A stretch of 64,000 nt of DNA. Origin: Telmatactis stephensoni. Its lineage: Eukaryota > Cnidaria > Anthozoa > Actiniaria > Isophelliidae. A model generated the notes under the pieces. That model ran no database searches. It was given only the letters and a program-made list of their open reading frames with translations, and had not been told where the DNA came from. Numbering within the stretch: position 1 is the first letter of the stretch; every line of letters begins with the position of its first letter. A program made the position numbers and the translations under genes. Of this stretch, positions 9,401-63,079 are shown piece by piece. The stretch spans positions 162,501 through 226,500 of the forward strand of contig JALIZF010001458.1 of the NCBI GenBank assembly GCA_029948255.1, read 5' to 3'.

Positions 9401-10453
9401 AACGCTATTGAAGGCATTCAAAAGAAGTTGGATGGAAATCCCTTAGTAATGACTACAGATGATGACAATTATTACAGCTTTGTCTGGAAAGTAAAGGACT
9501 TTAGTCAACAACTAGAGACAGCAAAGCAGTCAGGTCGTGATATTGTACTTTATAGCGAGCCATTCTATACCCACAGACATGGATACAGGCTAAAGCTACA
9601 GTTATATCCAAATGGATATGGTGCTGGCAAGGGTACCCACGTATCAGTATACCTGATTGTGATGTGTGGGGAGTTTGACTCGTTGTTAACCTGGCCTTTT
9701 AATTGGAAAGTCAACTTCGTCCTCATGGATCAGAAATTAAATCTTGTACGACAAAAAAATATTGGATACAGCTTATTCCTTCCAGATGAATCTGTTGAAC
9801 GTTATTTTTCAAGGAAAACAAAAGAAAATAACACTGGATGTGGATTACCTAAATTTGCATCTCATGAAGTATTAGCCACCGAACAGTATATTGTAGATGA
9901 TGTAATTTTTGTAAAAGTGAATCTTGAGAAACCTTCGCACTTGGATATGAACCCACCAACAATGACTAAAGACGATGAAATGCATTACAGTTATATCTGG
10001 AAGATAAAGGACTTCAGTCAACAACTAGAGACAGCAAAGCAGTCAGGTCGCAATATAAAACTTTACAGTGAGCCATTCTATACGCACAGATATGGATACC
10101 GACTGAAGCTGGAGTTAGACCTTAATGGATATGGTGATGGCCAGGGTACCCACGTATCAGTATTCCTGATTGTCATGCGCGGTGAATATAATGGAGTGTT
10201 AATTTGGCCTTTTGATTGGAAAGTCAAGTTCATCCTCATGGATCAGAAACCAAAACCTTCACGGCGTAGAAATATTGAATACATCTTAATCCCTGGTAAA
10301 TCTCTGAAAAACTATCAAAGGCCAACAACAGACGAAAATGTTGGGAGAGGACCCGCTAAATTTGCATCTCATGAAGTGTTAGCCACAGAAAACTATGTTG
10401 TAGATAATGAACTTTTTCTAAAACTTGAGCTTGAGAAACCTACAATAGCTTAA
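6481..10453 (+). CDS. TRAF-like protein copy A: RING, TRAF zinc fingers, coiled coil, two MATH domains
   Basis: Seven exons can be placed: 6481-6647, 7454-7499, 7671-7769, 7958-8122, 8366-8440, 8981-9058 and 9206-10453, about 625 residues. Exons 1-2 encode a RING finger (CIICQLV, KCGHQFCKECLEEA, then NPQCPKDREPL). Exons 3-6 are Cys/His-rich TRAF-type zinc fingers. Exon 7 holds a coiled coil with about three 20-residue repeats, then two MATH domains (nt ~9470-9930 and ~9990-10430). TRAFs couple TNF/IL-1/Toll-type receptors to NF-kB and JNK signalling, usually as trimers with one MATH domain; the RING suggests ubiquitin ligase activity. The acceptor used by B and C (at 9193 here) would read into TGA, because one extra base follows it. 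The next AG at 9205 restores the frame and drops a few residues. All splice sites are inferred from GT/AG and paralogy. Confidence 0.82.
8515..8702 (+). mobile_element. LINE 3'-end fragment in TRAF A intron 5
   Basis: A short T-rich segment ends in AATAAACTTGAACTTGAACT, a (TTGAAC)n tail after a polyadenylation-like signal. This is the typical end of a CR1/L2-like LINE. Copies B and C do not show it in the corresponding intron. Confidence 0.5.
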
Positions 10454-33799: not shown

Positions 33800-35744
33800 G
33801 AATATACCTTGAGTATCATGAAAGACATTAATATTGTTTAGAACAACCCTTGAAATTGATGTATTTTTAGTTGGCATGTTTAATTTCCCGTTATGTCTGC
33901 AATTTAAAAATTAAAAAGTTTTCAATGTTTTTTTTTTTTTAACGGTTTTTATTTCTTATCAGGTTTCAAGTCATACATCCACTGTGTGTCCGCTGGCCAT
34001 TGTACAGTGTAGTTATCAAAACATTGGATGTGACTTTACTGTAAGAGAATTAGACTAACCCAACTTTCATGAAACTGACCACCTTTTAATAATTCTTTTA
34101 TATTTCCACATTTCACCATCTAAATTTCTTGTTTAGTCTGAGGCTACACTTACAAAGTCCTTTATGATGTTTTAAGGTACAAAGAAAGCTTTTAAATGAT
34201 CACCTTGAAACCAGTGTAAAACAACACCTTACCATGGCGATGGAAAAGATTTCGTCAATTCAAAACCAGACAACGATCGCTCTTGAGAGTATGCAAAAAC
34301 AGATGGACGAAATGAAGAAGAATATGCCCCCTGAAAAAGTTTTTGAAGTCATTCGAAAAGAGATGGATGAGATGAAAATGCAAATGCTCTCTACCAACGC
34401 TATCGAAGGCATTCGAAAAGAGATGGATGAGATGAAAATGCAATTGTCCCCTACCAACGCTATCGAACGGATGCGAAAAGAGATGGATGAGATGAAAATG
34501 CAAATACCCCTTACTATCGAAGGCATTCGAAAAGAGAGTGATGATATGAGAATACAAATGCTACCTACCTGCAACGCTATGGAAGGCATGCAAAAAGAGA
34601 TGGGTGAGATAAAAATGCAAATGCTCCCTGCCAACGCTCTCGAAGACATTCAAAAAGAGTTGGATGAGATGAAAATGCAAATGCTCCCTGCCAACGCTAT
34701 AGATGGCATTCAGAAAAAGTTGGATGGAAATCCCTTACTAATGACTACAAATGATGAAAATTATTACAGCTTTGTCTGGAAAGTGAATAACTTTAGTCAA
34801 CAACTAGAGAAAGCGGCAGAGCAGTCAGGTCATGATATTGTACTTTATAGCGAGCCATTCTATACCCACAGACATGGATACAAACTGAAGCTACAGCTAT
34901 ATCCAAATGGACATGATGCTGGCAAGGGTACCCACGTATATACCTGATTGTGATGTGTGGGGAGATTGACTCCTTGTTAACCTGGCCTTTTAATTGGCAA
35001 GTCAGTTTCGTCCTCATGGATCAGAAGTCAAATCCTGCACAACAGAAAAATCTTGGGTGCAGTTTTCTCCCTTCAGATGAATCCGTTAAACGTAATTTTT
35101 CAAAGAAAACAAAAGATGACAACACTGTATGTGGATTACCTAAATTTGCATCTCATGAAGCATTAGCCACCGAACAGTATATTGTAGATGATATAATTTT
35201 TGTGAAAGTTGAGCTTGAGAAACCTCGACATTTAGATAGGAACCCACAAACAATGACCAAAGACGATGACATGCATTACAGTTATATCTGGAAGATAAAG
35301 GACTTTAGTCAACAACTAGAGACAGCAAAGCAGTCAGGTCGTGATATCCAATTTTACAGTGAGCCATTCTATACGCACAGGTATGGATATAGACTGAAAC
35401 TAAACTTAGCTCCCAATGGCAATGGTGTTGGTCAGGGTACCCACGTATCAGTGTTTTTGATTGTCATGCGTGGGGAGTATGATGGCTATTTAACCTGGCC
35501 TTTTCATTGGAAAATCAAGTTCATCCTCATAGATCAGAAACCAAATCCTTCGCAGCGTACAAATATGGTATATATATTAATCCCTGATCAATCTATGAAA
35601 AACTTTCAAAGGCCAACAACAGATGAAAATCTTGGGAGAGGACCCAGTAAATTTGCATCTCATGAAGCGTTAGCCACAGAAAACTATGTTGTAGACAATA
35701 CGCTTTTTCTTAAACTTGAGCTTGAGAAACCTACAATAGCTTAG

Positions 35745-40500: not shown

Positions 40501-40812
40501 TTTGTTTGTTGATCGTTGCCAAGGTAACACCGATCAAGCGGAAGCAACAGGCCTTATCAGATCACTTTCTGGAAATGAAAGTGAAAGTGTGTTAACGAGA
40601 AAACTGTTTTAGCCACTTTAAATTGCTGAACGCACAAAACTGCAATCTTTGGGTTTATTTTCATCAAATATCCATCGTTCACGCAATTCCTTTTCGTGTA
40701 ATCCTCGAAGAGTGCCACAATTTACAAATAACTGCGTATGTGGTCTGAACATCGACAGTAAACGCGCATAAATTACACAGTATTGATCAAGCCAGCGTTT
40801 ATATCGGACAAA
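37541..40812. other. Intergenic region before the LamNT gene
   Basis: I recognise no coding sequence. A LINE-type 3' end on the minus strand (TAATAATAATGATACTTTAT, 40037-40065) is the only clear repeat. GTTGCGCGC-rich inverted words occur near 38500-38555. The promoter of the downstream gene should lie close to 40812, but I could not define it. Confidence 0.4.
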
Positions 40813-41370
40813 ATGGTCGTTCTGTCAATGTCAAATTTCTTCGAGTCTCTACTGTTATCGAGCTTAATTGCCCTGACATTCAGCCAGCAAGACTGTAGTA
40901 CTGGGCCATGTTTTCCTGCTCCTACAGATGTAGAAAGTACATTCGTGGTGAATGCAAGTTCAACTTGTGGTCTCAATAGTCCCGAGAACTACTGTCTATC
41001 ATTAGATCCATCGTGCCTCCGTGTCTGTGATGCTTCAGTTAAAGACAAAAGTCACCCAGCATCTAATGTTATCGATGCAGTATTTTCAAACACTTTCTGG
41101 AAATCTGTAAACTTTATTCGACCAGTTTATTTACAGATAGACTTTGGGACTACACTGATGCTGCATCGTTCAGTTGTGACGTTCATGTACGAAGTCCCTG
41201 ACGCTATGTACTTTGCTAAATCCATAGACTATGGCACAACGTTTATACCTGTAAACTATCATGCTACAAATTGTACAAAGTTTTTTAACATGCCGGTAAC
41301 AGCAAGTAATCGAAGAAATGGTTTGGCTGTTGAGTGTTTTCGAATCGATGTAAACATCCTTAGCAAACAG
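40813..41370 (+). CDS. LamNT gene exon 1: signal peptide and laminin N-terminal domain (part 1)
   Basis: The ATG at 40813 is the first in frame that directly precedes the hydrophobic segment. A second in-frame ATG five codons on would also keep a signal peptide. The domain shows PENYC, NVIDAVFSNTFWKS, VYLQIDFGTT and NGLAVECFRIDV, typical of the laminin VI domain that mediates polymer formation in laminins. The donor CAG/GTAAGC follows 41370. Confidence 0.85.
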
Positions 41371-44300
41371 GTAAGCTTCCGGGTTTTTTTCTTGCTTTAT
41401 TGATTACTTGAAATTGCTAGAAAATAAAGACAAATTACAATTCATTATCATTTTAAATACAATTAATTATCTTATATGTCTATTATCTTATATGTCTATT
41501 TCAATCTCAATCAAAAGTGTGCAATTAAAACAGTTTCAGTTTCATGCAGTTTCAGTTTCGGCAGGCATTCGGAATTGACTCGTCAATTCGGAATTGACTT
41601 AGTCAGTTTTAGTCGATTTTAATGATTGAAATTTAATTCACTTCAAGAAATATCGTCTTTTCATTCTCCATTATTGCTCTTTCTTATATAAATATCTTCA
41701 TCTATGTGAACTGTGCTACACATTTTTCGATAAATATGGTGTTTACGAAGATGTCCCGAAAGAGACAGGAAACCCAACGCTAGTTGTTTGATTATGTGAT
41801 GTATTTTAAGAAATATTTGCCATTTATAGTCAATAGTTGCAATTATTATATGAATATTTCTGCTAGTGAGTGAAAGTTTTTGCAAGTTTTTTTGATAAAC
41901 ATTGGGTTTACGAAGGCATTCTGAACGAACTGAGAGACGTCATGCAAGCATGGGCATTACTAACCGATTGAGAGCTTGATTACATGGGTGAGTTTATACT
42001 ACTTTGAATGAAATAATCTTGTGCTATTTTGCCTACACAGCCAGATGTAGTTTTCGGCGATGTACACAAGTCCTTTTCGATTTATGATTTTGCAGATTTC
42101 TGTAATGTTTGTTAAGAATTTCCATCTGGACCGTTTGTAGTTTGGATCACGGCATTCGTCGATCGCACTGACGATTGTTGGTTTTACACTAGTTAGCATT
42201 TTAAAATACAAAATAGTTTTTTCTAAGTTTCCTATATTTCTTTGCATTCCTGCCATTAATTTCACTGCTGATTAGGTTTGAAACCTCGACGTGTTTACTC
42301 TTAGGTTTAAGTCTGGGTGAGTGAACTGGGTTTTATTCAATTAAATATTTTCGATAGAAATATTCAAATTAAATTTACCTTTCTTGAATGGAGCCTTTGT
42401 GTGTCCTTGGGGATGTCTATATAGAGTTTTGGAAACTTTTACTACCTCTCGATTGAGGCGTACTGATCTTGCTTTTGTTGTTTTAAAGTTTGAAATGTCA
42501 CGGTGATGTCACGCAAGGTGCGCAGAATCCTCATGAAAGCTTGAAATTTTGATTTTGTGACAATGAACTTGCATGTGTGTGCTTTTTCTTTCATGTTTAT
42601 TTTTCATGAACTGTATTTAATTACTTCAAATTAATTTTATGTGAATAATTTTGTAATCTTAGAGCAAGCACAGTTAAACTGTGAAATATAATCAAAGTAA
42701 TTAATACTAACTAATAGTAAAAAATTATTTGTTTTCTATAATTTTTTAATAGCGCTACTTTGCATTATTCAGCTAGTCAATTTCACGGATTAAGTGCAAT
42801 CACTCTACTTCTGCCATGGTTTTAGTCATTACACATATTTCTACAGTTTTGTTATCTTTTCTCTCGACTAAACAATCCATTTACAAGCTGCATTAAAATC
42901 TATGGTAATAAAAGCCCTCAAAGAGGACTTGTGGTTACAGGTAAAATAATCAAAAACAATACTATTGTTTTTGATCATTTTACCTGTAACCACATAAGAG
43001 GGCTTTTATTTCCATAAATTTTAATGCAGCTTGTAAAATGGACTGTTTTTATCAATTAGCGAAATCGATTCTCTTTTAGTATAAACTAGAAGCCTCCTCG
43101 CAGACGTTTTTAATCTGGATCCAGTAAATTTCCCTCGTCACAAAAGTGTTTCCCCTGGTTCTTAGCTTAACCGTAGATTACCCAATACGGTATTTCCGAT
43201 ATCATTAAATCTAATATTCACTTTTTAGAATCCTCGCCGATTCTTAAAACATTTTTCCCCAAATAAATCATCTATTATGCCAGCTTATAGGAGAACAAAA
43301 ATCCTGACACCATCGAAATAAAAATCGAATTTCACAGTTGAGAAAGCTAGGTGCTATAAATGTACGGCTAAAAACTGCGATCTCTGTTCCAATTTCCTGA
43401 TGGAATCCGATATTTTTCCAAGTACAGCTAGCTACAGGACTAATTTATAAGATTAAAGAGGAACTTAGTTGCACTTCAAGCAATGTCATTTATATCGCTC
43501 ACTGTATTACTGAAGTGCAGTTTACAATACGTTGGTTCTACTTCAACGCAATTTAAGGTCAGGTTCCGTAACCATAAATCTGCAATTAAAACAAACAAAA
43601 ATTCGTGCGAGTTTGCAGAACATTTCAATCACAGTTTTCGCTTCATAGAACGTCTTGTTTATGTCTAGAGTTTTTTTTAGACTTTAGACTTTTTTATTGA
43701 TTTTGCACCATATTTACAGATTTTTTATAATAATTATTAATATACATATACCAGAATAATCAACAAATAGAAATTTATAGAACATATAAAGTTTGTGCAC
43801 AGTAGCCGAAGTAGCATAGCTTTCGTGTCGGCTACTGATACTACTAGATCTAAGTTTATATAGACCTTCAAAATGACAAGATTTGTCAACAAATTATTTC
43901 AACCAAATCGTGTACGTCGTACGAAGACAATTTCGAAACTTCAACAGACTTTTGGTATAAGTGACAGACACCAATGGACATCAACACCAAACATCAACAT
44001 CAATCAGCTGACCCAAACATGTGTTGAGCAATGCAAACACTGTGGTCGACACTATATATCCAATATGCATTTTGCCTGTCCTTCTAATAGAAACAATTTA
44101 CGAAGTAATACCATGATCACCTCGGGATCTATTGTTTTTGGAGGGACGTTTAATCGCTAACATCCCTCCCTCATGAATAGAAAGAGGGAAAATTAGTTCT
44201 AATATTCCCTCATTAATTATGAATGAGGGATGATTAGAACTAATCGTCCCTCATCCATAATTAATGAGGGACGATTAGAACTAATCGTCCCTCATGTTAT

Positions 44301-47300: not shown

Positions 47301-50300
47301 GTGACAGCAAGAAGGCATTACCCTGTTGGTGAGGCACATTCACGGTCTGCTGAACATTCTAGCAGACAGCTGGCTGTTAAGAAAAGAGCAGGTGAGAGGC
47401 ACAGAGTGGTCCCTGCACACCAAGCGTAGTGAGCCAAATGTTCTTCATTTGGTATACTCCAGAGCTGGACCTGTTTGCAACTCGACACATCCACAAGCTG
47501 GCAGCATTTGTGTTCCCAGTTCCAGATGGTCATGTCAGTCCAAATCGCTGAGTGCACGCTTTTCCTCCGACTGCCATGATGCAGCGGGTGGTTCTACTGC
47601 ATTCGAACAAGTGTCCGAATGGTGTTGGTAGCGCCTCTGCAGTTTACCAACCGTGGCTTCCCACTTTGCTGAGATTGTTAGTGGACATTCCACGGGAAAT
47701 CCCACCTCTGGCCCGGCTGTTGCGCCAGCTCCAGGTCAGACATTTTTCAACAGCCAGCCGAAACGAATACATCTGTTTCGCGTGGAACTTATCAAGCGTG
47801 GACTACGAGAGCAAACAGATTTCTGGAGCAGTTACCAGGCATCTCTGCAAGACAGTTAGAGCATCCACCGCCGGCATTTACGACTGTAAGTGGGGAGTGT
47901 ACGAGGATTGGTGTCGTGGGAAACAGATTAGTCCTCTTGAAGCCACTGTTCAGCAGTTAGCCAAGTTCTTTGAGTACCTGTTCTCAGGCCGCAAACTGGC
48001 TCCGTGTACCCTCAAATTAAAGGTTACACTGATCGATCATCCGCACAATTTTTCGGTTTCACTGTAGCTGGTATTCGTCTTTGAAGTGATCCAATCCTGT
48101 CCCCCAAGGTGGTGCCCCAGTGGAATTTAGCTTTGGTTCTCCAGGCTTTCCTGGAGAAGCCTTTTGAGTCTCTGAAGGCATGTGCGGCCAAGTTCCTCAC
48201 ATGGAAAACTGTGTTTTTGGTGGCTTTAGCACTGCTACAAAGCGAGTGAGCTGCTTACACGCACTGTCACTTGAACCGGATCCTGAGCAGCTAGACATGC
48301 CAGGTTCCCTGCGGTTTGGTCGTCATAAGTGCGATGTAACAATCTTCACGAATCCAGTTTTTGTAGCTAAAGCTAAGAATCACCGAGAAAGGGAATTCGA
48401 ACCCACCAGTGGTGTTAAAGTCCCTTCGGACTTTTATTGCCAGCCAGAATGAGCCAGACAACAAACTGTGCCAAATGCGGGCGCGCACTTATAAATTCCG
48501 ACCAGAGTTTATCTCCAGGTGGATCAAGTCGGCCATCAGGCAGGCGTACATGTCGGCAGGTAACTCTGAGTTTGTTCGAGGGCTTGTGGGTATCTCTGCA
48601 CATGAAGTGAGATCATTAGCCACATCATGGGCAGTGTTCAATTGTGCTCCAGTGGAGAGTATTTTGAAGGCTGCTTACTGGAACAATGAAAACACTTTCA
48701 CTACCTTCTACCTGCGGGACATGTCTGGCTTCTCTGAACAGATTCGCCGACTTGGGCCCCTTTCTGTGGCACAGACGACCGTCTGATCATGGTGTTGGAC
48801 TTGTGCATATTGTTTCCCCCTCAGAAGAATTCTTCTGGTAGCAGGGGTATAATGTACATAGTATTATTATTATTTTTTTTTTTTGTTCTTAGTTATTTCT
48901 TGTGTGTAGACCTTGCATCTAGTATCTGGGAAGACTGGCGAGACGGCCATGCTCCTTGAATTATTCTGTTGCCTTCCAGGACTCTGAGCCGGGAGCCACT
49001 GTCTCCAAAGGAGACAAGACTATACAGGATTTCTGATGCTCTACTAGCAATTAGAAGCTGGTCTCTTATCCAGATATTGGTACCGTATGGAAGTGTGCTC
49101 ACCCACCACCTTTCATGACATTCCGAAATTCATGTTAGATTTTAGGCTAAGTTTACGAAATAAATATGTCATATATTTTTTCGCAGGAAAATTGATATTT
49201 ATGAGTAATACCTACCTAAAATCTAACGATTTTGGCCCACTGTACCTGAGGTACACCACCTCCCCGCTTAGCATCTCAGAAGACCTTGCTACACAATCCA
49301 AAAGTGAGTGTAAGGCCTCGAAGGCCAGGTCACATGGCCAAGCTACATACGGGACTTTCAGTCCTTTGTCCTGGTGCATATTGTTTGACGGCGAATTATG
49401 TAAATTCATTTTAGATTTTAGGTATTACTCATAAATATCAATTTTCCTGCGGAAAACGACAATTTATGGGTCATAATATCCCTGTACCTTGTGACTTGAA
49501 TTGTTTGTTTGTTTGATCGATTACTGTTTCATTTGCAATTTCTTATATATTTGTTTGCGTTTTTTATTGTTGTATTAATTGTGTATTTACCGTCGTTTCT
49601 AGGCCAATGGCACTGAGTGTGACTGCAAGAGGAATACAACTGGCAAAAACTGTGAAAAATGTTTACCACTCTTCAACAACAAACCTTATGAGATGCGAAA
49701 ATCATGCGAAGGTGGGTCATTACCGCAAACAATTGTTATCATTAAGCATAAGTGCATTGTATTTATGTTGATCGATTTATCCATCATTTCGTATGACTGT
49801 AAAAACGTAACACTGGACGAAAAATTGGATTTGCTACCATTTACTGGCTTCCAAATGTGGTGCAAATATGTTGTAAACATAATGCAAATGTAGTAAATAC
49901 CGCATTTGCTCATCCCATTTTTCATCCCATTGGCAAATACGGTATTTACCAGATTTACATTCGGTTTACTACATATTTGCACCACATTTGCTTCCCCAGT
50001 AAAGGGTAGCAAATCCAATTTTTCGTCCAGTGTAATGCGCTTTGCTACGAGTTTATCAGTGGTTCGGTGTCTATAAAAACATTCAAAACTCGAACCATAT
50101 ATACCATTCCGTGACCTCGCCATTTACACATGCAGTTATAGGAAACTTACTCTATTGACGTGCGGTCGTCACACGACCGAAACTTCTGCAACATAGCACA
50201 TTCCGCTACAAATCTCATTTCCAGTAAGTGACTCCATTCATTTCTAATTTCAATCCCACTGAATGATTGACAACATTCATTCACTTATACTCTATGCCGT

Positions 50301-53300: not shown

Positions 53301-56300
53301 AAGTATGTCAGGAGAGCAAAAGTTTTAGGCGAATAAATGGGCAAGTAAATATTCAAGGGAATTAAACTTTTGATTTTCTCAGCAGAAAGTTTAAAAAGGT
53401 GCGCGAGCGCGGTCGAGCTCCCGCTGCTGACATCAGAACTATGCTCTGTTCTCTGATAAAGCACAGCTTTCAGCCAATTAGAGCGCGCGTATAGACAACG
53501 GTATATATTAATATATCAATATAATAATTGGAACATCATGCACGCTCTGATTGGTCAAGAACCGCGTGTTATCACAGTACGCACGCATAGATGACGTCAT
53601 CAAATCTTAGGCGCCCTCTGATTGGTTGAAATATTTCGACAAATAATATAAAAAAACAAATTGGATTCAATTTTTTCGTGAGTCTGTACTCCAATACATG
53701 CACAGGTGACGTCAAAATGTGGTTAGAACAAGTCACATCCCTCGAATTCGTCTGGAGGCGTACATTTTGCCCTTTGTTCATCTGTGCTAATAATTTATAC
53801 TTCTTATTGTACTTCACAGCATGCCAATGCAATTCAATTGGAAGTCGTTCAGGAACAACATGTAATCGTGTTACTGGACAGTGTCAATGTCTACCACGTG
53901 TTGTAGGATTGTCATGCGATCGATGTGAAGCCATCGCGTATAAGTTGTCTAGTGGTGTGGGTTGTTTAGCATGTAATTGTCATCCACAAGGTTCTACAAA
54001 ACAACAATGTGATGAGGTTAGCGTTTGAAATCATTGAATTGGCTTCAAACCATATTTTTGGGAATTTGAAATTTGAAAGGTTATGTGCCTGGTTTTCGCG
54101 GGGGACGAAAGCAGAAGCGTAAGCAACATACGCGCGCAGACTCAGTATGCACTGTCTACTGTCTTCTCTCAAACAGAAATGCATCACTAAGTCAGCGTAC
54201 GGTGCTTCCACTTCTGCTTCCTTCCCTGTTTAGAACGACTTTACTAAATGGCTCCGAAACGAACATTCGTGCTCTCGGTAGTCTTTGATATAGTTCATTG
54301 TTATTGTTTAGATTATTGTATTGATCTCTCTACAGACCACGGGTAAATGTGATTGTAAACCAAATTTCACTGGTGACAAGTGTGACTCGTGTGCGCCTGG
54401 TTTTCATGGTGTCACCCTGACACCTCCTTGTCAAAGTAAGTATCTACTAAGGTTTGATGACAAACCTTAAATGTATACAAAGAGCGTGGCTAGCTGAGGG
54501 AGGGTGCCAGGGGTTCTGAAATTCCCTTTGGTGCCATTTCTATTGTATTTATCAAATTGAACAGCTTTTTCCGTGCTCCGTTCACTAATACTACACGAAG
54601 TGAGTTACGAGAGCACGAAAAAAGTGTAAGGAGAGCACGAGTCGTAGGCAAGTAAATAGACAAGTAAATATTCAAGGGAAAACGTTTAATTTTTTTTCCG
54701 TACAAAAATTCAAAAAATGCGCTAGCGCGGTCGAAATCCCGGTGTTGACATCAGAACTATGCTCCGTTCTCTGATAAGGCACAGCTTTCAGCTAATCAGA
54801 GCGCGCGTATATACAAGGGTATATAATATATCAATACAATAATTGGTACATCATGCATGCTCTGATTGGTCAAAACCCGCGTGTGATCACGGTACGCACG
54901 CATTGATGACGTTGTAACATCCGCCCTCTGATTGGTTGAAATGTTTCGATGAATATTGTATAAAGCAAATTGGATTCATTTTTTTCGTGGGTCTGTACTC
55001 TAACAGATGCACAGATGACGTCAAAATGTGGTTAGAACAAGTCACATCCCTCGAATTCGTCTGGAGGCGTACATTTTGCCATTTGTTCATCTATACTAAT
55101 AAAACCTCTAATTGTACTTCACAGCATGTCAATGCAATTCAACTGGAAGTCGTTCAGGCACACCATGTAATCGTGTTACTGGACAGTGTCAATGTATACC
55201 ACGTGTTGTAGGACGGTCATGTGATCGATGTGAAGCCAACGCATTTAATTTCTCTATTGGTGTGGGTTGTTTAGCATGTAGTTGTCATCAACAAGGTTCT
55301 ACAAAACAACAATGTGATGAGGTTAGCGGTTAAAATCATTGAATTGGCTCAAATCATATTGGTGGGAATTTGAAATGTTATGTACCAGGTTTTTGGGTTG
55401 CAAGTCAATGATAACCGTCACGAATTTATGCAAAGAAGCACTTGTTTTTATTATGTTGAAGAATTTTCATAGCAACAAGGTGTAAAATCGCCATAGTGAA
55501 GACAGTAACTGTGGTATATGAAGCAAGTGTAGTAACTGTAGTAAACGTAGCAAGCGTAGTAACTGTAGCAAGTGTAGTAGCTGTAGCAGGCGTACTAACT
55601 GTAGCAAGCGCAGTAACTGTAGCAAGCGTAGCAAGCGTAGTAAGCGTAGTAACTGTAGCAAACGTAGCAAGCGTAGTAACCGTAGCAAAAGTAGTAACTG
55701 TAGCAACTGTAGCAAATGTAGTAACTGTAGTAAACGTAGCAAGCGTAGTAACTGTAGCAAGCGTAGTAACTGTAGCAAGCGTAGTAAATGTAGTAAGCGT
55801 AGCAAGAGTAGTAACTGTAGCAACTCTAGCAAACGTAGTAACTGTAGCAAACGTAGTAACTGTAGTAAGCGTAGTAAACGTAGTAAGCGTAGTAACTGTA
55901 GCAAACGTAGCAAGCGTAGTAACTGTAGCAGGCGTAGTAACTGTAGTAAACGTAGTAACTGTAGTAAACGTAGCAACCGTAGTAATTGTAGTAGCTGTAG
56001 TAAATGTAGTAAGCGTAGAAGCTGTAGTAAATGTAGCAAGAGTAGTAACTGTAGCAACTGTAGCAAATGTAGTAACTGTAGCAAGCGTAGTAACTGTAGC
56101 AAACGTAGTAACTGTAGCAAACGTAGTAACTGTAGTAAGCGTAGTAACTGTAGCAAGCGTAGTAACTGTAGCAAGTGTAGTAACTGTAGCAAGTGTAGTA
56201 ACTGTAGTAAGCGTAGTAACTGTAGTAAGCGTAGTAACTGTAGTAAACGTAGTAACCGTAGTAAGTGTAGTAGCTGTAGTAAATGTAGTAAGCGTAGTAG

Positions 56301-59300
56301 CTGTAGTAAATGTAGCAAGCGTAGTAACTGTAGTAAACGTAGCAAGCGTAGTAACTGTAGCAGGCGTAGTAAACATAGTAAGTGTAGTAAGCGTAGTAAC
56401 CGTAGCAAGCGTAGTAAGCGTAGTAAGCGTAGTAACTGTAGCAAACGTAGTAACTGTAGCAAACGTAGTAACTGTAGTAAGCGTAGTAAACGTAGTAAGT
56501 GTAGTAACTGTAGTAAGCGTAGTAACTGTAGCAAACGTAGTAACTGTAGCAAACGTAGTAACTGTAGTAAGCGTAGTAACTGTAGCAAGCGTAGTAACTG
56601 TAGTAAAGGTAGTAACTGTAGCAAGTGTAGTAACTGTAGTAAACGTAGCAAGTTTAGTAACTGTAGTAAGCATAGTAACTGTAGTAAACGTAGTAACTGT
56701 AGTAAACGTAGTAACTTTAGTAAGCGTTGTAAATGTAGTAAGCGTAGTAACTGTAGTAAGCGTAGTAACTGTAGCAAACGTAGTAACTGTAGTAAGCGTA
56801 GTAACTGTAGCAAGCGTAGTAACTGTAGCAAGCATAGTAACTGTAGCAAGCGTAGTAAGTGTAGTAACTGTAGCAAACGTAGCAAGCGTAGTAACCGTAG
56901 CAAGAGTAGTTAACTGTAGCAACTGTAGCAAATGTAGTAACTGTAGCAAGCGTAGTAACTGTAGCAAACGTAGTCACTGTAGCAAACGTAGTAACTGTAG
57001 TAAGCGTAGTAAACGTAGTAAGCTTAGTAACTGTAGTAAATGTAGCAAGTGTAGTAACTGTAGTAAGTGTAGTAACTGTAGCATGCGTAGTAACTGTAGC
57101 AGGCGTAGTAACTGTAGCAAGCGTAATAAATGTAGCAAGTTGTAGTAAATGTAGTAAATGTAGTAAGCGTAGCAAGCGTAGTAACTGTAGCCAGTTTAGT
57201 AACTGTAGGAAGCGTAGTAACTGTAGTAAACGTAGCAAGCGTAGTAACTGTAGCAGGCGTAGTAACTGTAGCAGGCGTAGTAACTGTAGTAAGCGTAGTA
57301 ACTTCGCTTACTACAGTTACTACAGTTACTACAATTACTACATTTACTATGCCTGATACAATTACTACGCTTGCTACAGTTACTACAGTTGCTACATTTA
57401 CTACAGTTACTACGCTTACTACAGTTACTACGCTTGCTACAGTTACTACGCTTGCTACGTTTACTACAGTTACTACACTTGCTACAGTTACTACACTTGC
57501 TACAGTTACTACGCTTGCTACAGTTACTACGCTTGCTACGTTTGCTACAGTTACTACGCTTACTAAGTTTACTACGGTTACTACGCTTACTACAGTTACT
57601 ACGCTTACTACAGTTACTACGCTTGCTACAGTTACTACGCTTGCTACAGTTACTACGCTTGCTACGTTTACTACAGTTACTACGCTTACTACAGTTACTA
57701 CGCTTACTACAGTTACTACGCTTACTACAGTTTCTACGTTTGCTACAGTTACTACGTTTGCTACAGTTACTACGCTTGCTACAGTTACTACGCTTGCTAC
57801 AATTACTACACTTGCTACGTTTACTACAGTTACTACACTTGCTACAGTTACTACACTTGCTACAGTTACTGCGCTTACTACATTTACTACGCTTGCTACA
57901 TTTACTACACTTGCTACGTTTGCTACAGTTACCACACTTGCTACAGTTACTACACTTGCTACAGTTACTACGCTTACTACATTTACTACGCTTGCTACAA
58001 TTACTACACTTGCTACGTTTACTACAGTTACTTCGCTTGCTACAATTACTACACTTGCTACAATTACTACACTTGCTACAATTACTACACTTGCTACAAT
58101 TACTACACTTGCTACAGTTACTACACTTGCTACAGTTACTACACTTGCTACAGTTACTACACTTGCTACAGTTACTACACTTGCTATAGTTACTACGCTT
58201 ACAACATTTACTACGCTTGCTACAATTACTACACTTGCTACGTTTACTACAGTTACTACACACTTGCTACAGTTACTACACTTGCCACAGTTATTACGCT
58301 TGCTACAGTTACTACGCTTGCTACAATTACTACACTTCCTACAATTACTACACTTGCTACGTTTGCTACAGTTACTACACTTGCTACGTTTACTACACTT
58401 GCTACAATTACTACACTTGCTACAGTTACTACACTTGCTACAGTTACTACACTTGCTACAGTTACTACACTTGCTACAGTTACTACGCTTGCTACAATTA
58501 CTACACTTGCTACGTTTACTACAGTTACTACACTTGCTACAGTTACTACACTTGCTACAGTTACTACGCTTGCTACAGTTACTACGCTTGCTACGTTTGC
58601 TACAGTTACTACGCTTACTAAGTTTACTACGGTTACTACGCTTACTACAGTTACTACGCTTACTACAGTTACTACGCTTGCTACAGTAACTACGCTTGCT
58701 ACAGTTACTACGCTTGCTAAAGTTACTACGCTTGCTACGTTTACTACGCTTACTACGTTTACTAAGCTTACTACATTTACTACGCTTGCTACATTTATTA
58801 CGCTTACTACGCTTGCTACAGTTACTACGCTTACTACATTTACTACGCTTGCTACAATTACTACGCTTGCTACGTTTATTACAGTTACTACACTTGCTAC
58901 GTTTACTACACTTGCTACAGTTACTACGCTTGCTACAGTTACTACGCTTGCTACAGTTACTACACTTGCTACAGTTACTACACTTGCTACAGTTACTACA
59001 CTTGCTACAATTACTACACTTGCTACATTTACTACACTTGCTACAATTACTACACTTGCTACGTTTACTACAGTTACTACACTTGCTACAGTTACTACGC
59101 TTGCTACAATTACTACACTTGCTACAATTACTACACTTGCTACGTTTACTACGCTTGCTACGTTTACTACACTTGCTACAATTACTACACTTGCTACGTT
59201 TACTACAGTTACTACACTTGCTACAGTTACTACACTTGCTACAGTTACTACGCTTGCTACAGTTACTACGCTTACTACAGTTACTACGCTTGCTACAGTT

Positions 59301-60740
59301 ACTACGCTTGCTACAGTTACTACGCTTACTACGCTTGCTACAATTACTACACTTGCTACGTTTACTACGCTTGCTACAGTTACTACGCTTGCTACAGTTA
59401 CTACGCTTACTACGCTTACTACGGTTGCTACACTTGCTACGGTTGCTATGGTATCTATGGAAAAATCTTTTATGCGTCATAATGATTTTGCTAGCCTGTA
59501 CAAATTCGTGACGGTTATCATTGACTGACTACCGGTTTTTGCGAGGGACGAAAGCAGAAGCGTAAGCAACATACGCAGAATCAGTATGCACTGTCCACTG
59601 TCTTCTTTCAAACGGCAATGCAACACTAAGTGTGCGTACGGTTTTTCAACTTCTACTTCCTTCCCTCTTTAGAACGACTTTACTAAATGGCTCAGAAACG
59701 AATATTCGTGCTCGTGGTAGACTTTTATCGAGTCCATTGTTATTGTTTTTATTTATTTTATTGTATTCTTCTCTCTACAGACTACGGGTAAATGTGATTG
59801 TAAACCAAATTTCATTGGTGACAAGTGTGACTCGTGTGCGCCTGGTTTTCATGGTGTCACCCTGACACCTCCTTGTCAAAGTAAGTATCTACTAAGGTTT
59901 GATGACAAACCTTTATGTACCAAGAGCGTACATGGCTAGCTAAGAGAGGGTTCCAGGGGTTCTGGAAGTCCATTTGGTGCCATTTCTATTGAATTTATCA
60001 AAAGGTACAGCTTTTTTCCCCGTGCTCCGTTCACTAATAAAGCACGAAGGAAGCGACGGGAGCACAAAAGCAATGTCAGGAGAGCACAAGTTTTAGGCGA
60101 ATTAATGGGCAATTAAATATTCAAGGGAATTAAACTTTTGATTTTCTCAGTACAAAATTTAAAAAGGCGCGCGAGCTCGACATCAGAACTATGCTCCGTC
60201 CTCTGATAAAGCACAGCTTTCAGCCAATCAGAGCGCGCGTATATACAAGGGTATATAATATATCAATACAATAATTGGAACATCATGCATGCTCTGATTG
60301 GTCAATTGGTTCATCTATGTTAATAATACTTCTAATTGTACTTCACAGCATGTCAATGCAATTCAACTGGAAGTCGTTCAGGCACACCGTGTAATCGTGT
60401 TACTGGACAGTGTCAATGTCTACCACGAGTTGTAGGATTGTCATGTGATCGATGTGAAGCCAACGCGTTTTATTTCTCTAGTGGTGTGGGATGTTTAGCA
60501 TGTAGTTGTCATCCACAAGGTTCTACAAAAAAACAATGTGATGAGGTTAGCGGTTAAAATCATTGAATTGGCTTCAAACCATATTTGTGGGAATTTAAAA
60601 TTTGAAATGTTATGTGCCAGGTTTTCGCGGGGGAAGAAAGCAGAAGCGAAAACAACGTGCGCTGACTCAGTATGCACTGTCCACTGTCTTCTCTCAAACA
60701 GAAATGCAACACTAAGTCTGCGTACTGTGCTTCCGCTTCT

Positions 60741-60777
<37 letters not shown>

Positions 60778-60802
60778 CTAGCTAGCTAGCTAGCTAGCTA
60801 GC

Positions 60803-60864
<62 letters not shown>

Positions 60865-63079
60865 GTTAGTTAGTTAGTTAGTTAGTTAGTTTGTTAGTTA
60901 GTTAGTAAAATAGTTATCGAATTCATTGTTACTGTTTATATTCTTGTATTCTTCTCTCTACAGACTACGGGTAAATGTGATTGTAAAGCAAATTTCATTG
61001 GTGGCAAGTGTGACTCGTGTGCGCCTGGTTTTCTTGGCGTCACCCCGACACCTTCTTTTCAAAGTAAGTAATTGCTAAAGTTTGATGACAAACCTTAATG
61101 TAACAAAAGTGTGACTGCAATCCGCGCCGATTGCAATTGCCGACACACTTTCAAAAAATGGTCAAAATTCTACGTTTATGAATTGCGACCTTTTCACCCT
61201 CGCCCCCTAAGCAACGCTGTCCACTGGTCAGATTCTAGTGTGGGAGACTTTTCTCACCTCAACATTGAATAGGGGGAGGGGGGGGGGGGAATGACTGAAT
61301 TAAACAAACTTAGTTTCCAGTGAGGACAACTTTAGTAAGATAGGTAATTTTCTTCCACAAATGTGTGTCATTCAAAAAGGCGCCGATTGTAGACGGCCTG
61401 GGCACGAGTAATAATTTCATTTTAGTGGGAGAAGGCTTCCTAATCTGGCTTCAATTTTTGTGCCTTTCTTGCAAAGAAATAAAGCGGTTACTATGGGAAA
61501 CTGTCATTTTCTGTAGGCATGCAGGTATTTCAAAATCAAGCTAAAATACCACTCCTCTCAGCCAATCACATTGCAGAGATTTCTTAGGTTATATTATTAC
61601 ATTCAAAACACTACAAAATCCTCAACTTTTTCGCCTTTTTTCCATTCTCCTTTTGTGATCAGAATATGCATAGTCAGTTGATGCTAGATAATGTGAACAT
61701 TAGCAAAACTAGGAAAAGTTTGATTTTCGCGCGGTTTTGGGAACTCAAATTTGCACTAAATTTCTTTTTTTCTGAACTAAATTGGATTAATACAGCACTG
61801 TTCTTAGCCAATCAGCATCGATAATTTTTTCATGTATATCATTGCAGATAGGAAATTACCAAGCTAGCTAGTCTTTACATGTAAGCGCACTGACTGTAGT
61901 GATGTTTCTTGTTTGTTTTCTAGGTTACACAGACTGTACACGTTCATCGACTGCTACCCAGCAAACGGGATATTGTAAGTATATATTTTTGTACAAAACA
62001 TTTCATCATCTTCCACAGCAGCAAGTGATAACATCTTCGCATGTCTCCAACTTCTATTGTCTTGGACAAATGGATAATTTTGAAAGGATAATTTCTAGCT
62101 GTTCATACTTTTGCACTCGACTGTAATGCTAGGGGAGACTATATATACGACTCTCTCATAGAGGTAGCCCTAATCCAGGTTAAAACCGTAATTGAGGCCA
62201 CTTCCGTCCAGCGGTTCGTACATACTCGTCATGTTACCACTTGCTGTTCATCTTTTACAGGATTTGCACTGTAGTTGTTTGTGTGTTTACTTGATTACTA
62301 TTCCCAGTGTCCATGCAGGTTCTATTTTTTGAAAAGTGGAGAGCGCTACCCGTTGGATATATTCTTATGCAGAAGATAAATCCATTGTATCAGGGGCCGG
62401 TTGTACAAGGGGTGAATAGCGCTATCCAGCGGATAATTCCTTATCCAGCGGATAAAATCTATACAAAATCTATACAGTGGATAACTCTTATCTCATCTAT
62501 CATTATATCCATTGGATGTCGAACGATCTATCCACTTATATAGCATTATCTACTTTCAATGTAAACGGAGCCAGACTTACAAAATATACAGCAATTAAAG
62601 GGGGACGACGATCAAAATCGGTTAGAATTGGAAATGGATTATTCCTAGATGAAGTAACTCAATGATGACAATAAATGCATATGAATAATTACTTTCTCAA
62701 AAATTCTGCATTTTAAGCTCATTATCACCGAAAAATTTAAAGGCCAAAAGAACAATAGGTTTGTGTAAATGACGTCATTTCTTTCAGCTTCTACAGTTCT
62801 TATTGCCCTGTCAGCCTCCCTTGCAGTGTTTTTACTAGTCATCATTGTACTTGTGGTGTGCATTTGGAAAAACAGACGAACAGAACAAAGGTATTTATAT
62901 CTTTCTTTTTCTCCCTCTTTTCCTTGTTTTCTTTCTTCCTTCCTTTTGAAAGTCAAACCTTCATTTGTTCATCTCCTCACTAGGCAAGTCAATTTACCAC
63001 ATATTATTGAAACAAACGCTTGCCTGACTCACATTTTGTTCTTTGTTTTTCAAGTACAAACGATACCGAAGCACACGAA
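40813..63079 (+). CDS. LamNT - laminin-EGF - transmembrane protein
   Basis: Exons placed by GT/AG and phase: 40813-41370, 45223-45459, 49603-49711, 50355-50522, 51148-51300, four pairs (52508-52704/53018-53117, 53820-54016/54336-54435, 55125-55321/59781-59880, 60349-60545/60964-61063), then 61924-61974, 62788-62890 and 63055-63079. The gene continues past the last exon. The protein has a signal peptide (hydrophobic LLLSSLIALTF), a laminin N-terminal domain, about 11 LE repeats, a short Ser/Thr-rich stalk and one transmembrane helix (VLIALSASLAVFLLVIIVLV) with a basic stop-transfer WKNRR. Laminins and netrins are secreted, so a membrane-anchored form is unusual and suggests a cell-surface adhesion or guidance receptor (inference). 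The frames agree across every junction. Confidence 0.82.
42661..42807. mobile_element. 147-bp TIR element with unlike ends
   Basis: The left end AGAGCAAGCACAGTTAAACT resembles the element at 13178. The right end, read inward from 42807, is AGAGTGATTGCACTTAATCC and resembles the element at 2072. Both end in GTGAAAT. It lies in intron 1 of the LamNT gene. Confidence 0.6.
42871..43048. repeat. ~178-bp near-perfect palindrome
   Basis: The left arm runs 42871-42962 and the right arm 42963-43048, with almost no loop (the centre is ACAATACTATTGT). Arms share CAAGCTGCATTAAAAT and GTGGTTACAGGTAAAAT with their inverses. The arms differ by only a few bases. It is probably a MITE; no copy of the same family is seen elsewhere in the window. 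Confidence 0.75.
43345..43668 (+). mobile_element. Penelope-like element fragment with GIY-YIG endonuclease
   Basis: The reading frames give CYKCTAKNCDLCSNFLMES, then after frame breaks LQYVGSTSTQFKVRFRNHKS and CEFAEHFNHSF. The Cys-rich linker followed by YVGST...RFRNHKS is the typical zinc-finger and GIY-YIG end of Penelope-like retroelements. Stops and frameshifts lie between 43440 and 43500. The reverse transcriptase is absent, so this is a dead 3' piece in intron 1 of the LamNT gene. Confidence 0.75.
44105..44847. mobile_element. Composite hairpin element, modules A and B
   Basis: Module A (44105-44684) is bounded by GTAATACCATGATCACC and its inverse. Its left side has tandem palindromes built on GAGGGACGATTAG and CTAATCGTCCCTC. 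A three-base spacer AAA leads to module B (44688-44847, exactly 160 bp), a single hairpin with GATTAAATGTCCCC and GGGGACATTTAATC. This is the 14260-15064 element in opposite orientation, with spacer and B length preserved. It lies in intron 1 of the LamNT gene and interrupts an open frame that starts at 43873. Confidence 0.75.
45223..45459 (+). CDS. LamNT gene exon 2: end of laminin N-terminal domain
   Basis: The acceptor TTTTTTGTCTAG at 45222 is followed by IEYAPMKDPTTAKAIKESHQ and ends YFTIDDWLVSAACFCNGQAS plus SCK. The last residues begin the first LE repeat (CFCNGQASSC). The phase agrees with exons 1 and 3. Confidence 0.85.
45780..48850 (+). mobile_element. DIRS-like retroelement, RT deleted, tyrosine recombinase decayed
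   Basis: A gag-like frame starts MDHSRVEDPSLQLILAETQ at 45832, has an in-frame TGA at 45964, and runs to about 46440. A Ser/Lys/Arg-rich tail follows in another frame. The RT expected next is missing. RNase H-like sequence follows at about 47095-47260 (HVNELELLAIQRAIHHFLP, VHSDNTSKESVAYISVKPGG). A tyrosine recombinase comes last: RVSCLHALSLEPD near 48246, HEVRSLATSWA near 48603 and the candidate nucleophile in TFYLRDM near 48706, spread over three frames. DIRS elements integrate by recombinase rather than integrase. The copy is inactive and lies in intron 2 of the LamNT gene, same strand. Confidence 0.82.
48409..48786 (+). pseudogene. Tyrosine recombinase C-terminal part (DIRS-like)
   Basis: The frame keeps the catalytic core residues of the tyrosine recombinase family: H-x-x-R in AHEVRS, the Trp in AAYWNNENTF and the candidate active Tyr in TTFYLRD. 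The preceding part, including the first catalytic Arg (RVSCLHAL), is in a different frame, so no complete enzyme can be read. Confidence 0.75.
49150..49480. repeat. Inverted repeat downstream of the DIRS-like element
   Basis: The arms at 49184-49227 and 49410-49449 are reverse complements (GCAGGAAAATTGATATTTAT; ATAAATATCAATTTTCCTGC), continuing imperfectly outward. The spacer is about 180 bp. It may be a separate MITE or the terminal repeat region of the adjoining retroelement. Confidence 0.6.
49603..51300 (+). CDS. LamNT gene exons 3-5: LE repeats 1-3
   Basis: Exon 3 (49603-49711) finishes LE1 with CDCKRNTTGKNCEKCLPLF. Exon 4 (50355-50522) is LE2: CGCNNHAVSCHYN, CDNCTDNTTGDKCELC. Exon 5 (51148-51300) is LE3: CGCNLNGVPNISNRTHCHP, CYCKPRVQGRACDTCQPNYW. 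Each exon starts and ends in phase 1, so each LE module can be duplicated or skipped without a frame change. LE repeats form rod-like extracellular stalks held by four disulphides each. Confidence 0.85.
49809..50034. mobile_element. ~226-bp palindromic MITE in LamNT intron 3
   Basis: The arms start ACACTGGACGAAAAATTGGA and are mirrored ending TTCGTCCAGTGT at 50034. Further inward, CAAATGTGGTGCAAATATG is mirrored as CATATTTGCACCACATTTG. TA dinucleotides adjoin both ends, consistent with a TA target duplication. No coding sequence is present. Confidence 0.75.
52348..52440 (+). pseudogene. Truncated LE exon (X0)
   Basis: It starts with a good acceptor (TTCACAG) and CATGTCAATGC, like the four real X exons, but breaks off after GTTGTAGGACGGTCAT and runs into TAA. 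A direct duplicate of the upstream intron then leads to the complete X1 exon. If spliced in, it would truncate the protein, so it is presumably skipped. Confidence 0.75.
52508..53117 (+). CDS. LE exon pair X1/Y1
   Basis: X1 (52508-52704) encodes CQCNSTGSRSGTPCNRV, CQCLPRVVGLSCDRCEA and the start of the next LE (CSCYPQGSTKQQCDE). Y1 (53018-53117) completes it: CDCKPNVIGDKCESCAPGF. X begins in phase 1 and ends in phase 0, Y begins in phase 0 and ends in phase 1, so only the pair is frame-neutral. Donors are GTTAGC after X and GTAAGT after Y. Confidence 0.85.
53820..54435 (+). CDS. LE exon pair X2/Y2
   Basis: X2 (53820-54016) and Y2 (54336-54435) repeat the X1/Y1 pair with few changes (CNSIGSRSGTTCNRV; CKPNFTGDKCDSCAPGFHG). 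All eight Cys of each LE are kept. The surrounding introns are also copies of those around pair 1, so the whole ~1.31-kb unit was duplicated. Confidence 0.85.
55125..59880 (+). CDS. LE exon pair X3/Y3, intron holding the fold-back element
   Basis: X3 (55125-55321) has CQCIPRVVGRSCDRCEA. Y3 (59781-59880) has CKPNFIGDKCDSCAPGF. Between them the normally ~315-bp intron is enlarged to 4459 bp by the fold-back element at 55396-59533. The splice sites on both sides are unchanged. Confidence 0.83.
55396..59533. mobile_element. Fold-back transposon with arms of a 9-bp satellite
   Basis: The ends are inverted repeats. The left reads GGTTGCAAGTCAATGATAAC and on to CGTCACGAATTT; the right, read inward from 59533, begins GGTAGTCAGTCAATGATAAC and on to CGTCACGAATTT. 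GGTTTTTG at 55388-55395 and 59534-59541 is an apparent 8-bp target duplication. Paralogous introns (after X2 near 54092, after X4 near 60620) show the unoccupied site, AGGTTTTCGCG. Inside, about 55503-57310 is a run of GTAGYAAVY units (about 200) and about 57310-59450 is its reverse complement (about 240 units), switching orientation near 57305. Drosophila FB and Galileo elements have tandem-repeat arms of this kind; 8-bp duplications are typical of hAT elements. No transposase is present. Confidence 0.85.
60349..61063 (+). CDS. LE exon pair X4/Y4, last unit, one Cys lost
   Basis: X4 (60349-60545) is normal. Y4 (60964-61063) reads CDCKANFIGGKCDSCAPGF and then TPTPSFQ, where the other copies have TLTPPCQ: the last LE cysteine has become Phe and the Asp of GDK is Gly. 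Both splice sites are intact. The intron between them contains the tetranucleotide tract at 60741-60907. Confidence 0.8.
60741..60907 (+). repeat. (GTTA)n microsatellite with an internal (GCTA)n block
   Basis: About 40 tetranucleotide units: GTTA units, then eight or so GCTA units (about 60777-60804), then GTTA again with a few GTTT interruptions. It sits in the intron between X4 and Y4, where the corresponding introns of the other units have none. Confidence 0.9.
61924..63079 (+). CDS. LamNT gene stalk, transmembrane and cytoplasmic exons
   Basis: Exon 61924-61974 encodes YTDCTRSSTATQQTGY. Exon 62788-62890 encodes STVLIALSASLAVFLLVIIV, continuing LVVCIWKNRRTEQ: a membrane helix with a basic cytoplasmic edge. 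A 25-bp exon at 63055-63079 (TACAAACGATACCGAAGCAC through ACGAA) with TTTTTCAAG before it and GTAAGT after it would add TNDTEAHE in frame. The rest of the tail is beyond what I can place. The microexon is the least certain part. Confidence 0.68.
62340..62590. repeat. MITE-like sequence with GGATAA words
   Basis: GGGGCCGGTTGTACAAGG at 62392 resembles the end of the 4317 element. Around it, ATCCAGCGGATAA occurs twice in tandem and GGATA/TATCC words recur in both orientations. The outer limits are unclear. Confidence 0.4.

Follow-up and report, generated by a model that had tools for sequence, protein, structure and literature searches.

Inverted arms made of short tandem repeats are found in the FB elements of Drosophila and the TU elements of sea urchin, the latter with 8-bp duplications; both are likened to the elements described here by structure and not by sequence. 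Fold-back elements of flies, plants and sea urchin are on record (PMC4079207), and flies and nematodes have fold-backs whose arms are tandem repeats (PMC4079207, PMC3573991, PMC3169594). Tetris of Drosophila virilis has arm repeats that seed satellite arrays and ends in common with DAIBAM (PMC4079207), and in Galileo the THAP domain of the transposase binds sites within the tandem repeats (PMC3688188). The window analysed here is a stretch of 64,000 nucleotides from the sea anemone Telmatactis stephensoni (assembly GCA_029948255.1, contig JALIZF010001458.1, C490:162501-226500), and it holds an element whose two arms are a 9-bp satellite, GTAGYAAVY, in opposite orientations. This element is, with a probability of about 0.87, a fold-back DNA transposon that is non-autonomous and moves by a cut-and-paste mechanism. 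Dispersed through the genome are relatives with its end core, and together they form a clan of non-autonomous fold-back transposons. An initial annotation of the window had proposed a non-autonomous fold-back transposon, and the ends, the duplications and the copies at unlike sites all support that proposal.

The window element is flanked on both sides by GGTTTTTG, identical in 8 of 8 bp (Table 1). The 25-bp sequence AGTCAATGATAACCGTCACGAATTT at 55403-55427 returns as its exact reverse complement at 59502-59526. Because seven outer bases, which are unlike between the ends (GGTTGCA on the left, GGTAGTC on the right), precede this core, the full ends are ∼32 bp long and start with GGT. In the alignment, CATAGCAAC, which is akin to the 9-bp unit, occurs in the A-type and B-type subterminal segments alike. 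The interior consists almost entirely of the 9-bp tandem repeat. Counted from 55511 to 57304, the left arm is 1,794 bp (199 x 9), with the first unit fitting GTAGYA at 55529, and the right arm is 2,153 bp (239 x 9). Tandem Repeats Finder detects the two arrays independently. The strict pattern GTAGYA is matched 180 times in the forward and 219 times in the reverse orientation, and no misoriented pattern-fitting unit was found inside the element. The coordinates 55396-59533, the unit counts and the 8-bp direct repeat of the initial annotation were thus reproduced to the base. By eye, the 9-bp unit GTAGCAAGC resembles the terminal GGTTGCAAG, a likeness that is not used as evidence.

The paralogous introns in which the initial annotation had seen the site without the element were aligned through the insertion point, and the target site is indeed empty in three of them, near 52.8 kb, 54.1 kb and 60.6 kb. 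These introns read GGTTTAC or GGTTTTC, a single target copy with no insert, and the exons beside them are paralogues of the host-gene exons. The element itself lies, as had been annotated, within an intron. The host gene has repeated cysteine-rich exons, which may be laminin-EGF-like; a Pfam scan places a Laminin_N domain upstream of the host intron, at 40783-41403. A neighbouring paralogous intron holds a (GTTA)n array of 41 units at 60741-60906 of the window.

Table 1. Coordinates of the window element and its host intron (window positions)
Feature	Position	Strand	Remarks
Whole element	55396..59533	.	4,138 bp; insertion bounded by 8-bp duplication
Target-site duplication, left copy, GGTTTTTG	55388..55395	.	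empty sites in three paralogous introns
Target-site duplication, right copy, GGTTTTTG	59534..59541	.	
Left (A) end, GGTTGCA + 25 bp AGTCAATGATAACCGTCACGAATTT	55396..55427	+	
Right (B) end, 25 bp matching left end + GGTAGTC	59502..59533	-	
A-type subterminal segment	55428..55528	+	conserved well across 14 elements with 9-bp repeat; L021 copy broken by an insert
B-type subterminal segment	59458..59501	-	unlike A type; conserved well across 14 elements; from alignment
Left arm, GTAGYAAVY units	55529..57304	+	∼199 units if counted from 55511
Right arm, same 9-bp repeat on opposite strand	57305..59457	-	∼239 units
Single inversion point	57304..57308	.	last forward unit begins at 57295, first reverse one at 57309
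Host intron	55322..59780	+	4,459 bp, or 313 bp once the element and a single duplication copy are taken out; GT..AG limits judged by eye

The assembly searched for relatives has 1,782 contigs with a total of 483.5 Mb; the bounding end sequence of the clan is GGTNNNNAGTCAATGATAACCGTCACGAA. A 20-base end core, allowed up to 3 mismatches, matched at 103 places, 100 of which were listed, compared with 17 for the reversed-pattern control. At least 46 of the places listed match the core exactly, a number that chance would put far below one; judged by the control, ∼17 of the 103 are possibly chance matches, with loci L039, L041 and L048 as candidates for these. Twenty stretches were fetched, of which 17 hold a complete element, two lie on a nested complex on contig C180 and one has back-to-back ends. 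With the window element added, the complete elements number 18, the arms being of the 9-bp repeat in 14 and of an 8-bp repeat in 4; outside this count stand L026/L027 (the C180 complex), L028, the one-ended L003 and L008, a remnant on C48 and all later-fetched loci, among them L030, L034 and L035-L052. The flanking 8-bp duplications are exact in 16 of the 18 and agree in 7 of 8 positions in the other two (L013, L015). All 18 start with GGT at both ends, and some partial copies deviate. Two of the 18 double other entries (L016/L022 and L018/L020, each pair apparently one insertion on two contigs with flanks 99%–100% identical), and there are therefore 16 independent insertions. When 16 chosen duplications (14 of the exact ones from complete elements, that of the C48 remnant and that of L030) were re-paired among elements, the 120 pairs gave a mean of 2.6 matches of 8 and a maximum of 7. 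The C48 remnant, only 91 bp long, has its own exact 8-bp duplication, ATTCGACA. The initial annotation had staked its proposal on the existence of other copies with these ends and target duplications, and such copies were found, with different 8-bp duplications.

All 14 elements whose arms are the 9-bp repeat have one A-type and one B-type end, which differ inward of the common core. Units in complete elements face inward, reading GTAGYAA from either end. At the best single switch point no stray unit remains in 15 of the 18, one remains in L014, one in L017 and three in L023. The position of the switch point varies between 0.19 and 0.80 of the element length. Junctions vary, one being common to L010, L011 and L017, and a 105-bp unique middle segment is common to L015 and L019. 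Inverted arms of short tandem repeats with variable length, and dispersed copies with duplications of constant length, are among the features by which fold-back elements are recognised, and both are present here; what bears on excision or movement, a further such feature, is the empty paralogous sites.

To follow the history of the arms, 54-mer sharing was computed on the 14 elements, with the L016/L022 pair kept in, which inflates the A-A and B-B means. The A and B arms within one element have on average 1% of 54-mers in common; between elements the figures are 8% for A-A, 7% for B-B and 2% for A-B. A fresh mirror copy in each element, or a false join of one read with its mirror, would make the two arms of an element alike, which they are not. 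Judged from these sequences, the arms are two separate lineages, and the inverted arrangement looks ancestral, older than the copies. A fresh inversion in every copy was rejected, as the arms within an element are not mirror copies. The initial annotation had the element both carry and invert a satellite; the carriage stands, but there is no sign of an inversion made anew with each insertion. L010 and L011 have 69% of A-arm 54-mers in common and unlike duplications, and this likeness at unlike targets speaks for recent movement. The two-contig pairs differ in length despite near-identical flanks: 2,490 versus 3,791 bp in L016/L022 (flanks 100% and 99.8% identical) and 3,351 versus 3,871 bp in L018/L020 (100% and 99%). 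Arrays would thus change in length within one insertion, to which assembly duplicates or errors could contribute.

The same end core is found with other repeats. In L018, L020, L023 and L024, all complete elements, the arms consist of the 8-bp GAGGCACT, directed inward from both ends with a single inversion. The 10-bp unit TACCATGTCT is found in L030 and L050, which are likewise complete; their cores carry 2 and 3 mismatches at the two ends, their exact duplication is CATGCAAG (read by eye for L030), and they are probably one insertion on two contigs. Complete elements therefore hold three clearly different repeats: GTAGYAAVY, GAGGCACT and TACCATGTCT. By eye, the 10-bp unit resembles the terminal GGTAGTACGT, which again is not used as evidence. 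Eighteen more places with 1–3 core mismatches, L050 included, were fetched, and in 12 of them an array adjoins the end, with only one end covered except in L050. Beside such single ends lie arrays of GAGGCACT (L037, L042 and L045, the first two probably one insertion), of the 8-bp GTAGCAAY (L036, L047), of the 9-bp GTAGTAGGC (L040) and of forms of the window's own repeat (L038, L043, L044, L046, L052). Five of the 18 places have no nearby array (L035, L041, L048, L049, L051), and the array of L039 lies only far inside. In L034, ∼6 copies of the window's 9-bp unit are separated by ∼175 bp of other sequence from an array of at least 134 GTAGTACTT units; the locus may show a change of satellite, or the GTAGTACTT array may instead be a neighbour. 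It is conceivable, although rather unlikely, that one set of transposon ends repeatedly gave rise to new satellites, short subterminal motifs, putatively bound by transposase, having been amplified into arms. If true, the element would be a mobile machine that both starts and spreads satellite DNA.

The ends, the duplications, the dispersal, the empty sites, the orientation of the units, the separate evolution of the arms and the three repeats with one core are counted here as observations. A transposase made elsewhere would recognise the ends and move the element in trans, with staggered cuts 8 bp apart producing the duplication, and the arm repeats might, by analogy with known systems, provide extra putative binding sites for it. 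The repeat probably started as a few units beside each end, inverted because the ends are inverted. Each arm would then have lengthened and shortened separately through slippage or unequal exchange, so that the inward direction of the units is kept while arm length, the position of the inversion point and the higher-order pattern change fast. Relatives with the same end core may have passed through a like process with other short units.

Which transposase might act on these ends can be judged from their termini, from the duplications and from the position of transposase genes. Places with transposase domains were compared with the 100 listed of the 103 end places, a comparison that strongly changed ends would escape. 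Mobilisation by a Merlin-type (IS1595-like) enzyme is possible, since GG termini and 8-bp duplications are characteristic of that superfamily and the genome has 32 DDE_Tnp_IS1595 places; described Merlin elements have conserved 5'-GG ends, 8- or 9-bp duplications and, in some families, internal tandem repeats (PMC8101967). However, none of the 32 places lies within 177 kb of the listed ends, no DDE_Tnp_IS1595 domain was found between such ends, and four Merlin loci examined with their flanks (L069-L072) contain no paired core match, the best single match having 5 mismatches in 21 (L072). A Mutator-type (Phantom-like) enzyme is a tentative candidate of its own: the architecture of Tm1 is much the same as that of the clan (PMC3169594, PMC4079207), the paper on Tetris assigns Mutator-type (Phantom-like) transposases to most fold-back elements (PMC4079207), duplications of 8 bp fall within the 8-10 bp of this group, and 28 Mutator-like element (MULE) places are present. 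Against this, the nearest MULE is 55 kb from a listed end, no MULE transposase was found between such ends, the one MULE locus fetched (L073) matches the core only with 7 mismatches in 21, and the clan's duplications are 8 bp and not mostly 9. The hAT mobilisation suggested in the initial annotation fared worse and is improbable. The 8-bp duplications are compatible with it, and there are 93 hAT-dimer places (150 of 171 candidates scored). But hAT ends usually start with CA or TA, those of the clan start with GGT, none of the 93 places comes within 28 kb of the listed ends, the nearest being 28 kb from one, and no hAT transposase was found between such ends. Merlin- or Mutator-type mobilisation is a guess, the two standing about level, with hAT low.

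Several other candidates were rejected. Helitron or Helentron insertion is expected to leave no target duplication, and carriage by such elements was dismissed, as duplications are present. Membership of PIF/Harbinger requires a 3-bp duplication, with the rule 5'-TWA-3' (PMC4482050), and here it is 8 bp. A Harbinger-like frame (by eye, with no Pfam match) beside the C48 B end is a neighbour, since that end belongs to the 91-bp element with its own duplication. A DDE_Tnp_4 fragment that lies next to a C43 end and scores 17.3 bits (E 0.0039), under the Pfam cut-off of 24.8, is joined to a Polinton-like element, and in 11 of 11 fetched relatives (L056-L066, of 67 matches) no such end lies within ∼1.5 kb. 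This Polinton-like element (L049/L054, C43:808250-814500) shows integrase-, polymerase- and helicase-like frames by eye. Around ends without repeats on C86 and C9, neither a partner end nor, by eye, a transposase frame was recognised in ∼5 kb.

A false join or a hairpin-read mirror at the inversion point might be suspected because short-repeat arrays are difficult to assemble. Yet a single inversion is seen in all 18 elements, which lie at separate places, and several of their junctions are unlike; the 105-bp middle is common to L015 and L019, and the arms are not mirror copies, whereas a mirrored read would give identical arms. Such an artefact is very improbable. Still less credible are satellite arrays made by the host and hit by separate end fragments. 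Ends do lie inside arrays at C180 (L026/L027), but 8-bp duplications enclose end-array-end wholes, and three paralogous introns show the window site unoccupied.

For a non-autonomous fold-back transposon as the best explanation, some observations count on the other side. The autonomous relative with the same ends that the initial annotation had hoped for was sought among the MULE, Merlin and hAT places and not found, no search being made for P-type or other families; because no transposase source was found, movement in trans is something we infer, and the arm repeats are putative binding sites. In part, the two-contig pairs may reflect duplicates made in assembly or wrongly assembled arrays. 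The array of L030/L050 keeps one orientation throughout, and the fold-back layout is therefore not universal in the clan. L038, of which one end is covered, has ∼5 units inward and then ∼132 outward, beside an end-like match with 5 mismatches.

Further features were seen at individual loci. On C180 (L026/L027, C180:340600-353000), clan ends sit inside the satellite arrays of other copies, among them a run of several B ends, two of which adjoin GTAGTAAC; these look like nested insertions into the family's own arrays. The same locus holds a different element (L026 ∼618-2850) with 468-bp inverted ends that are 97% identical and consist partly of ∼20-bp units (ATTCGACATCCAAGTTCTAA); by eye it has an apparent 8-bp duplication, AAGCAACT, and exon-like interior pieces, perhaps captured gene fragments. 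In L028 (4938-4985, C106) the ends stand back to back, with 8 bases between the cores and without the usual outer GGT, possibly a joined-ends product. L009 and L017 both sit in copies of a different, palindromic repeat, at almost identical positions. A tRNA-like sequence with a GGTTCGAATCC-type box occurs at element positions 1011-1381 of L009 and at ∼220-300 of L039; by eye these are perhaps tRNA-derived short interspersed elements. Elsewhere in the window, frames at 47552-48786 resemble by eye a DIRS/Crypton-type tyrosine recombinase, with no Pfam match. Tandem genes at 9197-10453, 29003-30115 and 34234-35744 combine a coiled coil with paired MATH domains (Pfam for the first only, the others by eye). 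A MATH-domain protein of the window has its best matches in Exaiptasia and Actinostola, which makes a sea anemone the probable host.

The clan shows one way in which satellite DNA can travel around a genome, and it bears on the open question of how short satellites originate and how their arrays are scattered through gene-rich DNA; the 4-kb fold-back of the window sits in an intron of a laminin-like gene. A single genome here provides one core combined with different repeats, copies of a single insertion whose arrays differ in length, and arms that evolve apart without changing direction. With this material two ideas can be tested directly: that satellites are seeded by transposon ends, and that the arm repeats have a role in transposition. 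Among the matches listed in a search of the open literature for fold-back or minisatellite-armed elements of sea anemones and cnidarians, none was recognised as the clan. As far as the literature was searched, the host group, the near end-to-end satellite arms and the combination of one core with several short satellites are new.

Known systems match the clan in part. Merlin elements share with it the 5'-GG ends and 8-9-bp duplications (PMC8101967), while no Merlin transposase was found with clan ends. Galileo, of the P superfamily in Drosophila, has long inverted arms that are likewise internally repetitive, but differs in its 7-bp duplications, far longer units and known transposase (PMC3573991, PMC3688188). 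Tetris is, like the clan, a non-autonomous fold-back with tandem-repeat arms and 8-10-bp duplications, and it too has no known autonomous source; its units are 220 bp, its unique outer domains are long and three of its copies are structurally complete (PMC4079207). Much the same in plan is Tm1, a Mutator/Foldback element of root-knot nematodes, whose arms consist of a variable number of short (13-15 bp) tandem repeats; its two outer ends carry 7-bp motifs that differ from each other, and its duplications are 8-10 bp long and show no clear consensus (PMC3169594). Tm1 occurs with and without a Phantom-like transposase, whereas none was found with the clan, and it belongs to another phylum, with other sequences, another unit and a middle part that holds, for example, a histone-hairpin motif (PMC3169594). 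In the clan, by comparison, little of the element lies outside the arms, duplications measure 8 bp, and several repeats occur with a single core.

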